NCBI RefSeq assembly: GCF_014252255.1
Contig: NZ_CP059213.1
Coordinates: 496,001 to 560,000, forward strand
Direction of reading: 5' to 3'
DNA from: Blattabacterium cuenoti
Lineage (GTDB): Bacteria; Bacteroidota; Bacteroidia; Flavobacteriales; Blattabacteriaceae
Length of the DNA: 64,000 bases
Shown: piece after piece, positions 19,879-62,506 of the stretch
Position numbering within the stretch: the first letter of the stretch is position 1
Layout: every line of letters starts with the position of its first letter
Program-made: the position numbers and the translations under genes
The notes under the pieces: model-generated
The model's database searches: none
What the model saw: the letters and a program-made list of their open reading frames with translations, nothing else
Told to the model about the DNA's origin: nothing

Positions 19879-20964
19879 ATGAATTATTCAAAATATTTTG
19901 TAATATTCATTATTAATTTATTAATATCCATATTTTTTTTATACAAAATTACTAGACTTGCATTAAAGTGGGTTGATATTTATACTAAACATGGTTCTTA
20001 TGTTGTTGTTCCTAATTTGCGTTATTTGACTTTATCTCAATCTATATCTATTTTAAAAAAATTAGGATTAAAATATGATCTAGATGGATTACGTTATAAT
20101 TCTAATTTGATGAATAATAAAATAATATCCTTTTCTCCAGAAGCTGGTGATCATGTAAAAGAAGGGAGACATATATATTTACAAGTATATTCTAAATCAA
20201 AATATCCTACTATTATTTTACCAAAAATCATAAATAAAAACAAATATATTGCAATAAAATTACTTCATGATAACCATATTCCAATTAAAGAAATTAAATA
20301 TATTAATGATTTTTCTAAAGATATTGTTATTAAAATTGTTTATGAAAATAAATTAATCCAATATGGATACATTTTTCCTTATAATAAAAATCAAAAAGGA
20401 ATCACTTTAATTATTGGAAAAGGATATGAAAAAAATAATTTAATAGTTCCAAATGTAATTGGAATGTCATTACAATCTGCAAATTTGATTTTAAAAGAAA
20501 AATTTTTTCATATTATTAATTTTTATTATGACAAATCAATAATATCCCCTGATCAAAATGCAAAAGTATATCGTCAAAAACCATATCCTGGAGAAATTCA
20601 AAATAAAAACAAATCTGTTGATCTATGGTTAACTTCAAAGGAAATATTTGATAATCTAAAAATAGAAAAAAAGAAAGAAGAAGAGAAGAAAGAAGAAGAG
20701 AAGAAAGGAGAAGAGAAGAAAGGAGAAGAGAAGAAAGGAGAAGAGAAGAAAGGAGAAGAGAAGAAAGGAGAAGAGAAGAAAGGAGAAGAGAAGAAAGGAG
20801 AAGAAAAGAAAGGAGAAGAAAAGAAAGGAGAAAAAAAGAAAGGAGAAGAAAAGAAAGGAGAAAAAAAGAAAGGAGAAAAAAAGAAAGGAGAAAAAAAGAA
20901 AGGAGAAGAAAAGAAAGGAGAAAAAAAGAAAGGAGAAAAAATATTATACTTACGAAGTAAATGA
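19879..20964 (+). CDS. PASTA-domain membrane protein with repetitive Lys/Glu tail
   Basis: A 361-residue protein: short cytosolic start, one membrane segment (about residues 7-25), then three PASTA domains outside (VVPNLRYLTLSQSISIL; TIILPKIINKNKYIAIKLL; LIVPNVIGMSLQSANLIL), which in other proteins bind muropeptides or peptidoglycan. No kinase domain is present. From about residue 265 to 354 the sequence is 18 repeats of a five-residue Lys/Lys/Gly/Glu/Glu-or-Lys unit, then ILYLRSK. The tail looks like a DNA expansion, not a domain. It overlaps rluD by four bases (ATGA) and follows ddl divergently, a grouping that suits a wall function. Confidence 0.85.
   Translation: MNYSKYFVIFIINLLISIFFLYKITRLALKWVDIYTKHGSYVVVPNLRYLTLSQSISILKKLGLKYDLDGLRYNSNLMNNKIISFSPEAGDHVKEGRHIYLQVYSKSKYPTIILPKIINKNKYIAIKLLHDNHIPIKEIKYINDFSKDIVIKIVYENKLIQYGYIFPYNKNQKGITLIIGKGYEKNNLIVPNVIGMSLQSANLILKEKFFHIINFYYDKSIISPDQNAKVYRQKPYPGEIQNKNKSVDLWLTSKEIFDNLKIEKKKEEEKKEEEKKGEEKKGEEKKGEEKKGEEKKGEEKKGEEKKGEEKKGEEKKGEKKKGEEKKGEKKKGEKKKGEKKKGEEKKGEKKKGEKILYLRSK
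20671..20940 (+). repeat. 15-bp coding minisatellite, 18 units
   Basis: Eighteen uninterrupted 15-base units of the type AAGAAAGGAGAAGAG. The first two have GAA for GGA (KKEEE); then eight units encode KKGEE, six of them ending GAG and two GAA; the last eight mix KKGEK (ending AAA) with KKGEE. The variants are ordered along the array, which points to repeated local duplication. Every unit keeps the reading frame. Confidence 0.97.
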
Positions 20965-23466: not shown

Positions 23467-26247
23467 ATGGAATATAATTTTAAAGAAATAGAAAAACGTT
23501 GGCAAATATATTGGAAAAAATATAATATTTTTTTTACTAAAGAAAATGAAAAAAATAAAAAATATTATATTTTAAATATGTTTCCTTATCCTTCTGGAGC
23601 AGGACTACATATTGGTCATTGTTTAGGTTATATTGCGTCAGATATTTATGCAAGATATAAACGTGCAAGAGGATATAATGTTTTAATGCCCATAGGATTT
23701 GATTCTTTTGGATTACCAGCAGAACAATATGCAATACAAACAGGAAAACATCCTTATAATACCACGATTCAAAATTCAAAAAAATATAAAAATCAAATGG
23801 ATCAAATAGGTATTTCTTTTGATTGGAATCGTAAATTTTTCACTAGTGATCCAAATTATTATCGTTGGACTCAATGGATGTTTATTCAAATTTTTAATTC
23901 TTGGTATGATAAAAATTGTGAAAAAGCTAAACCTATAAATCTTTTAATTGAAGAATTTTATAAAAATGGAAATAATTTTATTAATGCAAGTACTTCTTAT
24001 AAGTATAAATTTAATTCAAAAATATGGAAAAAATTAAATTTTTACGAAAAAGAATCTATTCTTTTAAACTATAGGTTAGCTTTTTTATGTAAAAATATTG
24101 TTAATTGGTGTCCAGGATTAGGAACTGTTTTAGCTAATGATGAAATTAAAAATGGAAAAAGTCAAAGAGGGGGATATCCAGTTTATAAAAAAAAAATGTT
24201 ACAATGGCATATAAGAATTAGTGCATATGCAGAAAGGCTTATAAAAGGATTAAATTTAATTAACTCTTCTCTATCTCTTAAAAAATTACAATTAAATTGG
24301 ATAGGAAAATCAAAAGAAATTTCTTTACAATTAAAAATTGTATACACTATTAATAATATTGATAAAATTGAATTATTTATTTCATTTCCAGAAATGATAT
24401 TTGGAATGACTTTTATTATTTTATCTCCAGATCATCCACTTGTAACTAAAATTAGTGTTCCTTTTCATAAGGAAAAGGTTTTAACATATTTAATGCAAAA
24501 ACTTGATTCTGATGAATATATAAAAAAACCTTCTGGAATTTTTACAGGAAATTATGTTTTTCATCCCATTATTAAAAATAAAAAAATTCCTATTTATATT
24601 AGTAGTTTTTTTTCTATCAATAAAAAAATAAAATCTATGATAGGAATTCCTGTATATGAAGAAAAATGTAATATTTTTGCTAAAAAATTTAAATTAGAAA
24701 TTATTCAAGTTTTTGAAAAAAATGATATATGTATTAATTCTGATTTATTAAATGGATTAAATAAAAAACAAGCAAGAGAAAAAATTATAAAAATATTAAT
24801 AGAAAAAAAAATAGGTAAACAAAATATTACGTATAAAATACGTGATGCTATTTTTTCTAGACAAAGATATTGGGGAGAACCAATTCCTATTTATTTTAAA
24901 AATAAAATTCCAAAAACAATTCCTGTAGATAAATTACCAATTATTTTACCAAAAATAAATAATTATCATCCAAAAAACGGAAAATCTTCATTAATTAGAG
25001 CAAAAAATTGGGCATGGGATGAAAAAAATATGAAAATAGTTTCAAATACATTAATTGATTATAAAAATATATTTCCAATAGAAACAAATACAATGCCAAG
25101 TTGGGCCGGATCTAGTTGGTATTTTTTAAGATATATGGATGTTCATAATAACAAATTTTTTCTTGATAAAAAAAAAGAAAATTATTGGAAAAATATTGAT
25201 TTATATATTGGAGGATCAGAACATAGTACTGGACATTTAATTTATGCAAGATTTTGGCATAAATTTTTAAAGGATAGAGGATGGGTTACAACTGAAGAAC
25301 CTTTTAAAAAGGTATTAAATCAAGGAATGATTCTAAATTATTCTGCTTTTATACTCAAAATTATAGGAGAAAATACTTTTATTTCTTATGGATTAAGAAA
25401 AAAGAAAAAAAATGTTTTATTTCAAGAAATTTATGTAGATATTTCCTTAATAAGGAATAATAAAGAATTAGATATAGAAAAATTTAAAAAAAATAAACCA
25501 GAATTTCGTTTTTCAACTTTCCTTTTAGAAGGAGAAATTTTTCTTTGTAAAAGAAAATTAGAAAAAATGTCTAAATCTAAATATAATGTAATTAATCCTG
25601 ATGATATTTGTAATAAATATGGATCAGATATATTTAGAATGTATGAAATGTTTTTAGGTCCTATTACTCAATCTAAACCTTGGAATGATGAAAAAATAAA
25701 TGGAATTAAAAATTTTATAAATAAATTTTGGCGTTTATTTCATAATAATAATAAATTTCAAGTTAGTGAAATAAATCCAACATTTAAAGAATTACAAATT
25801 TTACATCATAATATTAAAAATATACAGGATAAAATAGAATCTTTTTCTTTCAATACATCAATTAGTTCATTGATGATTTTTGTAAATGAATTAACCATAT
25901 TAAAATGTAATAAAAGAAAAATATTGGAACCTTTAGTTCAATTAATAGCACCTTTTTCTCCTCATATAGCTGAAGAATTATGGTTTAAATTAGGAAAAAA
26001 TAAATCTATTATTCATTATTTAATTCCTAATTTTCATCCAAAATATCTAATAATAGATAAAATTATCTATCCTATTATGTTTAATGGAAAATTAAAGTTT
26101 ACAGAAAAATTTAATTCTAATATTTCAATAAAAGAAATAAAAAATCAAATTTTAAATCATTATAAAATAAAATCTTTTTTACAAGAAAAAAAAATAAAAA
26201 AAATAATTATAATTCCTAAAAAAATAATAAATATTTTACATGATTAA
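23467..26247 (+). CDS. leuS: leucyl-tRNA synthetase
   Basis: Class I synthetase charging tRNA-Leu. HIGH is intact (48-51), and KMSKS is intact (700-704), so aminoacylation should work. Length 926 with a Bacteroidota-type insertion between the catalytic halves. The CP1 editing domain (about 285-415) is present but its active site is altered: the Thr-rich TTRPDT motif reads ISFPEM (305-310), and the segment holding the universal editing Asp reads MIGIPVYEEKC (391-401), with Cys401 where RD is expected. The enzyme may therefore be unable to clear mischarged tRNA-Leu. It stands alone, with 122 bases before gdhA. Confidence 0.96.
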   Translation: MEYNFKEIEKRWQIYWKKYNIFFTKENEKNKKYYILNMFPYPSGAGLHIGHCLGYIASDIYARYKRARGYNVLMPIGFDSFGLPAEQYAIQTGKHPYNTTIQNSKKYKNQMDQIGISFDWNRKFFTSDPNYYRWTQWMFIQIFNSWYDKNCEKAKPINLLIEEFYKNGNNFINASTSYKYKFNSKIWKKLNFYEKESILLNYRLAFLCKNIVNWCPGLGTVLANDEIKNGKSQRGGYPVYKKKMLQWHIRISAYAERLIKGLNLINSSLSLKKLQLNWIGKSKEISLQLKIVYTINNIDKIELFISFPEMIFGMTFIILSPDHPLVTKISVPFHKEKVLTYLMQKLDSDEYIKKPSGIFTGNYVFHPIIKNKKIPIYISSFFSINKKIKSMIGIPVYEEKCNIFAKKFKLEIIQVFEKNDICINSDLLNGLNKKQAREKIIKILIEKKIGKQNITYKIRDAIFSRQRYWGEPIPIYFKNKIPKTIPVDKLPIILPKINNYHPKNGKSSLIRAKNWAWDEKNMKIVSNTLIDYKNIFPIETNTMPSWAGSSWYFLRYMDVHNNKFFLDKKKENYWKNIDLYIGGSEHSTGHLIYARFWHKFLKDRGWVTTEEPFKKVLNQGMILNYSAFILKIIGENTFISYGLRKKKKNVLFQEIYVDISLIRNNKELDIEKFKKNKPEFRFSTFLLEGEIFLCKRKLEKMSKSKYNVINPDDICNKYGSDIFRMYEMFLGPITQSKPWNDEKINGIKNFINKFWRLFHNNNKFQVSEINPTFKELQILHHNIKNIQDKIESFSFNTSISSLMIFVNELTILKCNKRKILEPLVQLIAPFSPHIAEELWFKLGKNKSIIHYLIPNFHPKYLIIDKIIYPIMFNGKLKFTEKFNSNISIKEIKNQILNHYKIKSFLQEKKIKKIIIIPKKIINILHD

Positions 26248-52096: not shown

Positions 52097-52201
52097 TTTT
52101 TTTTTAAAAAATTTTTTTATCCATTTTAAATAAATTAAATAATTAAAATCATTTTATATTTTATATTATAAAAGTTTATTATTTTATATTTATAATAATT
52201 T

Positions 52202-52281
52202 CACTAATTCACTAATTCACTAATTCACTGATTCACTGATTTACTGATTTACTGATTTACTGATTTACTGATTTACTGATT
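52202..52281 (+). repeat. 8-bp tandem repeat, 10 units
   Basis: Ten perfect-length octamers in a row: three CACTAATT, two CACTGATT, five TACTGATT. Intermediate units carry one change and the last five carry two, so the array records a stepwise spread of mutations by duplication. It lies in the 293-base gap between terC and secDF, upstream of both starts, and is not coding. Confidence 0.97.
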
Positions 52282-52295
52282 TAAATATATTATAA

Positions 52296-59959: not shown

Positions 59960-62506
59960 TTACAAATCTTTTCCTATAATAAAATGTTTTTTCCATTTTG
60001 ATTTATTACCTATATCTACATCATCTATAGGATATCCTATATCTATACCTAAAAATCCTATTGGACTCCAAAAAAAACGAATACCAAATCCAATAGATTT
60101 ATTCATTTTTAATGGATAAAATTTTTGATAAGAATCACTAACATTTCCTCCTTCCATAAAAAAAGTATTCCAAATTTTTAAATTTGAAAAATTTTTAATT
60201 AAATAACGTATTTCTAAAATAATTTTATTATAAATAACTCCTCCATTACTTGGAATTGGATATCTAAAATTATTTTTTATAAAAGAATATCCTCTTAATG
60301 GAATATGATCAAAATTTTCTAATTTTGATACAAATAAATTATTTTGTACTCCACCTATATAAAATTTTTGAAAAGGAAATAATTCTTTTGAATTATCATA
60401 TTGTCCTAAATATCCAAATTCATTTCCTATTTTTAATACCATTTTTTCTATAATTTTTTTATACCAAAAAAAATTTATTTTAAATTTAAAATATTCTATC
60501 CATTTTATTTCATTTTGATCATTATTATTTAAAATAATAGAATATGGAGGAGTAAATTTACTATTTAATTGGATTTGTGATCCTTTTAATGGAAATATGA
60601 CATCGGGTTCTGTAGAAATTCTTTGTAATGAAATCAAAAAATTAATATTATGTAATATTTTTTTTTGATAAAAATCAGAAGAAATTTCTTTTTTTAAAAA
60701 AAATTTATCGTAATCAATAGATGTTAAAATTTTTGAATAAGGATCTAAAAAAGATAAAAATTTATTTAAACTAATAGAAGTTCCTATTTTTTCTAAAAAT
60801 TGTTTTTCCTCAATTTTATCATTTTTATATATTTGAGATAATAAATAAAAATCTTCTTCTTTTTTTATTTTCTTTTTGGAATAATTCCCTATTAAAGTTA
60901 AAGATGTAGGATTTTTCTTTTCTATCCAAGGCTCTGTAAAAGAAAAACCATAAGATAAAAAATCTTTTCCTAATTGACTAAAAATAATTAATTTTTGACC
61001 GTCTCCTTGAGGAATAGGATTCCATAATTTCCATTTAAAAAAATTTTTAAAAGAAAAATTCCCAAAATTTAATTTAAAATTACCAATAATATTTTTCATA
61101 TTTTTTCCCCCAAATCCTCCATGAAATTGAAATTCATTTGTATTTTTTTCGATAATATGCCATTCTATATCTACAAAATTATTTTTTTTATTTGGAATAA
61201 TTTCAGAATGTACTTTTTCAAAAAGATTTAAATTTTCTAAGTTTAATAAACTATATCTGATATTTTTAGGATTAATAAGATCTCCTGGATAAGTTTTTAA
61301 TTCTCTTCTAATAACATGATCTTTTGTTATTAAATTTCCTAATATTTTAACTTTATTTATATATACTGGGTTATTTTCTTTTATTTGTATTTCTAAATCT
61401 ATTTGATGATTTATTACTCTTTTTTCTATTAAAATTATATTTACAAATAAATAACCTAAGTCTAGGTAAGTAGATAAAATACTTTTAGGAAAAGAAGCAT
61501 TTAAAATATTTCTTTCAATTTCAATTTTATTATAAATATTTCCTTTTTTATAAAATAAAATTTCTTTTAAAAAATTATTTTTCAATTTTATATTTCCTAA
61601 AAAATCTACATTTCCTAAATAATATCTATCTCCTTCAATAACCTTTATTTTTATTCCATAATTTCCAGATTTTTCTTTCCAAACAGAATCTAAAAATATT
61701 TGAATATCAAGAAATCCCATAGATTTATATTTATCTATAATATTTTTTAAATCTTTTTTTATATTTTCTTGAACAAATAAATAAATAGATTTTTCTATAA
61801 TTGGAATATAAAAATTTTTTCTAATTTTTATCATTAAACTTAGTAAGTCTTTATCATTAATGATATTATTTCCCTCAAAGAATATTTTTTCTATTTCAAT
61901 TTTTTTACCTTTATCAACAGATATATATAATATATTTTTATTATTTATTTTAGTTATTTCACTTTTTATCTTAATTTCATTATATCCTTTTTCTATATAA
62001 TATTCTTGAATATCGTTTTTTATAGTTTGAATTAAATCATCAGAAATTTTATCTCCATATTTTATTTTTTTTATATTAGGGAACTGTTCTTTTCTAATTC
62101 CTATTGTTTTAACTTCATGAATTTCTATTAAATCTTCTAATTCAAAAAATAAATCTATTTCATTTTTAGAAATATTTTTTTTATAAATAGATATATTTTT
62201 AAATAGATGACTGTTCCATAATTTTTTAATAGCAAAATCTATCTTAATTCCATAAAAATCAATTAAATCTCCATCATAAATACCAGATAATTTGGAAATA
62301 AATTGACTATTATATTTTGATTTTCCTATTATATGAATTGATTTTACAACTATATTTAAATTTTCATTTTTTTGAATATTAAAAATTTTCTTTTGATTAA
62401 AAGAGTATCCATGTTGGTTCTTTTGATTAAAAGAGTATCCATGTTGGATTTGTAGCATTATCATTAATAAATAAAAAATGCCTATTAGAAATATATTTTT
62501 TTTCAT
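59960..62506 (-). CDS. bamA: outer-membrane assembly factor BamA
   Basis: Omp85 protein inserting beta-barrels into the outer membrane. A signal peptide (about 1-25) is followed by a 10-residue tandem duplication (QHGYSFNQKN, QHGYSFNQKK), then five POTRA domains (about 50-440) and a C-terminal barrel with the lid-lock region PLRGYSFIKNNFRYPI and the final FGIRFFWSPIGFLGIDIGYP. Length 848. It sits between uppS and ompH on the minus strand. Confidence 0.95.
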   Translation of the reverse strand: MKKNIFLIGIFYLLMIMLQIQHGYSFNQKNQHGYSFNQKKIFNIQKNENLNIVVKSIHIIGKSKYNSQFISKLSGIYDGDLIDFYGIKIDFAIKKLWNSHLFKNISIYKKNISKNEIDLFFELEDLIEIHEVKTIGIRKEQFPNIKKIKYGDKISDDLIQTIKNDIQEYYIEKGYNEIKIKSEITKINNKNILYISVDKGKKIEIEKIFFEGNNIINDKDLLSLMIKIRKNFYIPIIEKSIYLFVQENIKKDLKNIIDKYKSMGFLDIQIFLDSVWKEKSGNYGIKIKVIEGDRYYLGNVDFLGNIKLKNNFLKEILFYKKGNIYNKIEIERNILNASFPKSILSTYLDLGYLFVNIILIEKRVINHQIDLEIQIKENNPVYINKVKILGNLITKDHVIRRELKTYPGDLINPKNIRYSLLNLENLNLFEKVHSEIIPNKKNNFVDIEWHIIEKNTNEFQFHGGFGGKNMKNIIGNFKLNFGNFSFKNFFKWKLWNPIPQGDGQKLIIFSQLGKDFLSYGFSFTEPWIEKKNPTSLTLIGNYSKKKIKKEEDFYLLSQIYKNDKIEEKQFLEKIGTSISLNKFLSFLDPYSKILTSIDYDKFFLKKEISSDFYQKKILHNINFLISLQRISTEPDVIFPLKGSQIQLNSKFTPPYSIILNNNDQNEIKWIEYFKFKINFFWYKKIIEKMVLKIGNEFGYLGQYDNSKELFPFQKFYIGGVQNNLFVSKLENFDHIPLRGYSFIKNNFRYPIPSNGGVIYNKIILEIRYLIKNFSNLKIWNTFFMEGGNVSDSYQKFYPLKMNKSIGFGIRFFWSPIGFLGIDIGYPIDDVDIGNKSKWKKHFIIGKDL
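62388..62447 (-). repeat. 30-bp tandem duplication in bamA
   Basis: Bases 62388-62417 and 62418-62447 are identical. In bamA they encode ten residues twice, in frame, just after the signal-peptide core. The perfect identity implies a recent event. Confidence 0.97.

Follow-up and report, generated by a model that had tools for sequence, protein, structure and literature searches.

Erosion of the CP1 editing site in the leucyl-tRNA synthetase of Blattabacterium

The leucyl-tRNA synthetase (LeuS) of Blattabacterium cuenoti has lost nearly all of the substrate-contacting residues of its editing site together with the catalytic Asp, as have those of all 49 Blattabacterium genomes examined. Taken as a whole, LeuS is very probably an essential LeuRS in which post-transfer editing by the CP1 domain is dead and the domain is retained as a scaffold. 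Of the parts of this reading, the death of the editing chemistry is, judged from the sequences, almost certain, and the retention of CP1 as a scaffold is probable. The loss of editing is common to the whole genus as examined; it is neither unique to this symbiont nor restricted to LeuS.

Blattabacterium cuenoti are obligate symbionts of cockroaches (PMC6039017). The source genome is strongly reduced and is a single contig of 628,934 bp. Its LeuS passes the TIGR00396 model with 745 bits against a curated cut-off of 548, and CP1 is complete, scoring 92.8 bits against PF13603 (threshold 25). It is the sole LeuS of the genome, the remaining matches in a genome search being partial and to related class I synthetases. 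The features of the gene are given below as positions in the window, which is the whole stretch of 64,000 nucleotides that was analysed.

23467..26247, + strand: leuS, leucyl-tRNA synthetase, 926 aa (TIGR00396 equivalog; Pfam tRNA-synt_1, tRNA-synt_1_2 (editing) and Anticodon_1)
23608..23619, + strand: HIGH, residues 48-51, intact (sequence; conserved across Blattabacterium)
24295..24822, + strand: CP1 editing domain, residues 277-452, fold kept and active site eroded (Pfam PF13603, AlphaFold2, Foldseek, conservation)
24379..24396, + strand: ISFPEM, residues 305-310, replacing TTRPDT (E. coli 247-252) (phmmer and multiple alignment)
24619..24651, + strand: NKKIKSMIGIP, residues 385-395, replacing GYGTGAVMAVP, with the Tyr330 and Met336 equivalents lost (alignment)
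24646..24669, + strand: IPVYEEKC, residues 394-401, replacing VPxxDxRD (alignment)
24667..24669, + strand: codon 401, Cys where E. coli has the catalytic Asp D345 (alignment)
25564..25578, + strand: KMSKS, residues 700-704, intact (sequence; conserved across Blattabacterium)

An earlier note on this DNA, made from the sequence, had described HIGH and KMSKS as intact and CP1 as largely kept, which the motifs themselves and the PF13603 match bear out. The interval in which it placed a dismantled editing site, 24379-24669, is exactly that of residues 305-401, and its readings of ISFPEM, NKKIKSMIGIP and IPVYEEKC agree with the sequence and the alignments. In a phmmer alignment to the LeuRS of T. 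thermophilus, ISFPEM is opposite TTRPDT and IPVYEEKC is opposite VPAHDQRD in a single register, and NKKIKSMIGIP stands opposite the Gly-rich loop. E. coli residue numbers were transferred through the T. thermophilus alignment, such that T248 corresponds to position 306 of this LeuS, Y330 to 386, M336 to 392, D342 to 398 and D345 to 401. The features tested for an editing-competent LeuRS, the catalytic Asp (D345) and TTRPDT, are both absent, and phmmer, profile and MAFFT alignments rule out an Asp or Thr at a shifted position as a substitute. The loss of the editing site, as first proposed, is well supported, and the shifted Asp and Thr that the note named as grounds for refutation are not there.

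Conservation was assessed in a LeuS alignment of 70 sequences, of which 49 are from Blattabacterium, 12 from other members of the same family and 9 from genomes of the same order. These last are 1.8–5.3 Mb and the label 'free-living' used for them rests on this size. The nine, with G050 (1.3 Mb, same family), make up a reference set of 10 sequences, all of which keep T, T, R, P, D and T, a GYGTGA-type loop and D..RD. The equivalent of D345 is absent from 49/49 Blattabacterium, being replaced by Ser in 43 (AGT or AGC) and by Cys in 6 (TGT or TGC). Among the same 49, T247 is kept in 12, T248 in 1, R249 in 18, T252 in 5, Y330 in none, M336 in 1 and D342 in 8. Glu is present instead of D342 in 40, and an acidic residue (E or D) survives at 398, the D342 position, in 48/49. 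Entropy is lower at 398 (0.78) and 401 (0.54) than at the average CP1 site (1.41), and it is conceivable that the conserved acid at 398 and the Ser or Cys at 401 may have some unrecognised role.

Reference-invariant sites are kept by Blattabacterium LeuS at 90% in the catalytic N half, 91% before CP1, 88% in the catalytic C half and 85% in the anticodon and C-terminal part. Because the rest of the enzyme keeps 85–91% of these sites and CP1 keeps 50%, the loss in CP1 is not a product of chance or of a general AT effect. An enzyme-by-enzyme control compared 16 Blattabacterium genomes with 7 genomes of the same order. In this 16-genome subset the fraction kept in LeuS was 0.555 in CP1 and 0.855 in the rest, versus 0.763 in the editing domain and 0.819 in the rest for IleS, 0.878 and 0.824 for ValS, 0.810 and 0.845 for AlaS, and 0.598 and 0.720 for PheT. 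Within CP1, 14 active-site positions, which follow known motifs but were picked after the finding had been seen, are kept in a mean of 5.9/49 sequences, as against 32.3/49 for the 34 other invariant positions (Mann-Whitney p = 8e-5). AT bias alone was rejected as the cause, since the editing domains of IleS, ValS and AlaS are retained in these genomes and the change from Asp (GAT) to Ser (AGT) at 401 is GC-neutral.

Over 24 pooled pairs, CP1 has a pN/pS of 0.50 and the remainder of LeuS one of 0.30, and the median ratio of dN in CP1 to dN outside is 1.98 over all pairs, these being values from simple counting on pairs that are not fully independent. With dN/dS in CP1 at about 0.5 versus 0.3, selection on the domain is relaxed but not neutral. 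Structural modelling, which had been proposed as a check in the earlier note, gives CP1 a normal LeuRS editing fold in prediction. The AlphaFold2 model of CP1 from Blattabacterium sequences alone has a mean pLDDT of 83.4 and a pTM of 0.79, and Foldseek matches it to CP1 of the T. thermophilus LeuRS (1obh) with a TM of 0.84. A model of the full-length LeuS also predicts CP1 well. The domain has probably been retained because aminoacylation still relies on its fold as a scaffold.

In a LeuS tree built without CP1, the 49 Blattabacterium form one clade, with the Asp lost throughout, and Karelsulcia (G055 and G059) stands apart from it. When LeuS without CP1 was combined with IleS and ValS (2,751 columns), Karelsulcia was the sister of Blattabacterium, with an SH-aLRT of 99.7. 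Karelsulcia LeuS shares A390S, D398E and D401S, and Tyr330 and Met336 are still present. These states would fit an order of events in which the Asp was lost first, in the Blattabacterium ancestor and perhaps in one shared with Karelsulcia, and the rest of the pocket would have decayed afterwards. Outside CP1, 16 of 25 doubly derived sites likewise share their state between Karelsulcia and Blattabacterium and both lineages are AT-rich, so that the shared states could stem either from common ancestry or from parallel change. The loss is at least as old as the ancestor of Blattabacterium and possibly as old as the ancestor shared with Karelsulcia. Other members of the family, G049, G054 and G051, keep the Asp. 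CP1 is shredded or partly deleted in G053, G056 and G060, a sign of additional erosion that took place separately. In LeuS of G053, a 263-kb relative, the segment of CP1 holding the catalytic Asp is gone, apparently by deletion.

Other proofreading enzymes of Blattabacterium are also affected. ThrS is without the entire N-terminal TGS and editing (SAD) region in 49/49 genomes, and in each of them alignment to the thrS model starts at about position 146-172 of 565. The ThrS of the source genome (about 415 aa; G000:C1:188830-190065) consists of the class II core and anticodon domain only. One SAD domain is found per genome, in an AlaS-sized frame, which in the source genome is AlaS itself. In PheT the B3/4 domain is recognised. 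The editing Glu, which we take to be the equivalent of E. coli beta-E334, is Gly in 16/16 Blattabacterium and Glu in 7/7 free-living relatives. The 16 Blattabacterium sequences (L087:1187-3289 among them) also lack the GG of the G-x-x-GG loop. It is likely that PheT editing has been lost, although this is less certain than for LeuS. In 16/16 genomes, with small changes, IleS keeps WTTTPWT and HIAPTFG-ED, ValS keeps ATTRPET and TPAHD, and AlaS keeps HTxTHLLH and CIGTH. The proofreading set therefore appears to have been selectively pruned, with Leu, Thr and apparently Phe editing lost and Ile, Val and Ala editing kept. Rescue by trans-acting factors was rejected, DTD and YbaK-type domains being without a match in the 49 Blattabacterium genomes; to our knowledge, neither family acts on mischarged tRNA-Leu.

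Several further differences were seen in these enzymes. PheT is about 100 aa shorter than that of the free-living relatives, apparently without the N-terminal tRNA-binding domain. The AlaS of Karelsulcia (G055 and G059) is about 510 aa and without an editing domain, so that a different set has been pruned there. The valS of one Blattabacterium (G002:C1:197348-200607) gives two matches that overlap on query positions 612-808, which might reflect a tandem duplication of part of the gene at the 3' end.

It is very unlikely that the editing site has been rebuilt, with the acid at 398 and the Ser or Cys at 401 taking over so that mischarged tRNA is still hydrolysed. The near-constancy of an acid at 398 (48/49) and the exclusive use of Ser or Cys at 401 (49/49) speak for such a site, and Karelsulcia likewise has E for D at the one position and S for D at the other. 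However, the equivalents of the Thr motif, Tyr330, Met336 and the Gly-rich loop are gone or freely varying, residue 401 sits near the start of a predicted helix (399-407), so that a small polar side chain there has an ordinary structural reason, and E. coli LeuRS with D345A is editing-deficient (PMC4932531). That leuS is decaying into a pseudogene or stems from a sequencing artefact, with another LeuRS charging tRNA-Leu, might be imagined in a genome that is AT-rich and reduced, but has next to no probability. Each of the 49 genomes has one full-length frame, the source genome has only this LeuS, the catalytic part is 85–91% conserved with a dN/dS of 0.30, and all strains carry the same substitution; together these observations refute it.

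A dead CP1 could also be accompanied by fidelity kept through a choosier synthetic site or tRNA-dependent pre-transfer editing, which is unlikely. The synthetic site is intact and some LeuRS, such as that of yeast, edit pre-transfer, yet the E. coli LeuRS depends on post-transfer editing (PMC7373986). It is highly improbable that the loss is adaptive, the symbiont benefiting from a statistical proteome. Such a benefit has been suggested for Mycoplasma and other parasites (PMC7373986, PMC10057733), but immune escape is unsuited to a vertically inherited mutualist in bacteriocytes, a CP1 dN/dS below 1 indicates relaxation rather than positive selection, and editing is retained in IleS, ValS and AlaS.

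With LeuS as an essential synthetase whose CP1 editing is dead, norvalyl- and other mischarged tRNA-Leu would not be cleared, and Leu codons would be somewhat ambiguous. In E. coli with D345A LeuRS, norvaline is found at 1.65% of Leu sites aerobically and at 8.8% microaerobically, Ile is not incorporated, and the cells survive with reduced fitness (PMC4932531). As the editing-dead E. coli took in norvaline and not Ile, Ile is unlikely to be the main intruder at Leu codons. By analogy with this strain, Blattabacterium should tolerate some norvaline at Leu, and the substitution of Leu is plausible given the precedents of E. coli D345A and Mycoplasma. Misincorporation at a measurable level is somewhat more likely than not.

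The earlier note had offered low competition from Ile, Val or norvaline as one way in which the loss could be borne. Low norvaline is not the obvious explanation, since the source genome has leuA, leuC, leuD and leuB in a row (names by eye except leuA), and norvaline, a side product, could therefore be made. The leuA gene is present in 43/49 Blattabacterium genomes and missing in six, therefore low norvaline through a lost Leu pathway is ruled out for the source genome and for most of the genus. Nor is a link visible between loss of leuA and the extent of CP1 erosion, which is not visibly different in the six leuA-less genomes.

In all 43 genomes having leuA, the LeuA match ends at 378-400 of a 494-position model. 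The LeuA of the source genome (L236:1371-2591) is without LeuA_dimer, the C-terminal leucine-feedback domain, in Pfam; the short form could predate the symbiosis. In M. abscessus, a LeuA mutation that abolishes feedback leads to more leucine, which shields a LeuRS with dead editing against norvaline (PMC11057210). On the basis of the short LeuA and of this precedent, it is proposed that editing can be dispensed with partly thanks to the supply of leucine, and a high leucine supply would be a better candidate than low norvaline. Relaxed selection, through small population, slow growth and chaperones, would be the most likely reason that the loss is tolerated. Leucine from the leuACDB operon, with its feedback-less LeuA, would outcompete norvaline and aid this tolerance; that it is a main reason for it is possible but doubtful. 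An account in which Leu, Phe and Thr proofreading were lost together early in an ancient lineage of insect symbionts and stayed lost, the Leu part possibly from an ancestor shared with Karelsulcia, and in which a mutualist has long had a proteome ambiguous at Leu, Phe and Thr codons and offsets this by making the cognate amino acids in excess, is on balance unlikely.

The LeuRS editing domain of Mycoplasma, including M. mobile, is mutated or missing (Li et al. 2011, as related in PMC10057733, PMC11415595 and PMC7373986). Like Blattabacterium, these are small-genome, host-bound bacteria with a naturally editing-deficient LeuRS, and the Leu, Phe and Thr enzymes are hit within the genus. Natural editing-deficient LeuRS, PheRS and ThrRS occur in Mycoplasma, and according to a review no case of three or more losses is known (PMC7373986). 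In Blattabacterium all three are apparently hit together in one genome, a combination unknown in Mycoplasma according to that review. As summarised in PMC11020763, PMC10057733 and PMC7373986, aaRS editing sites are usually degenerate in host-restricted bacteria (Melnikov et al. 2018, PNAS), and the Blattabacterium case fits the pattern so summarised, being host-restricted with a degenerate site and having relatives in which it is intact. Beyond what is related of that survey, the present analysis adds fixation across the genus, a possible origin with Karelsulcia, and the keeping of IleS, ValS and AlaS proofreading. No papers on editing in Blattabacterium aaRS were found in the literature searched.

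Structure 3ziu (637 residues), which we take to be the M. mobile LeuRS, differs in that CP1 is wholly absent and only the catalytic parts match, whereas Blattabacterium keeps the fold and loses the site. The E. coli laboratory mutant D345A has the same Asp replaced and retains aminoacylation, but this is a lone change in an otherwise sound site and in Blattabacterium the whole pocket is eroded. M. abscessus with LeuRS D436H and feedback-resistant LeuA (PMC11057210) resembles Blattabacterium in combining editing loss with LeuA without feedback; these are, however, drug-selected point mutations and not an ancient natural state, and the link between LeuRS and LeuA in Blattabacterium is a putative one.

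Blattabacterium LeuS is a clear further example of a known phenomenon and not a new type of system. As an ancient case with many strains it can reveal what proofreading can be dispensed with and for what reasons, and the genus-wide selective pattern over six editing enzymes makes it a useful test case. Misincorporation, if measured, would run counter to the suggestion, drawn from Mycoplasma, that a genome loses two editing enzymes at most (PMC7373986). The case also offers the testable idea that a nutrient-provisioning symbiont, by supplying the cognate amino acid, frees itself from the need to proofread.

Three repeats were seen elsewhere in the window. A 15-bp repeat at 20664-20941 (18.5 copies, 96% matches) encodes KGEEK repeats at the C-terminal end of a protein of 361 aa (19879-20964), which is PASTA-like by eye. 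An 8-bp repeat, ATTTACTG, is present in 10.6 copies at 52198-52283, between a TerC-like gene and secDF (names by eye). A perfect 30-bp tandem duplication at 62388-62447 falls early in a BamA-like protein (HGYSFNQKNQ HGYSFNQKK).
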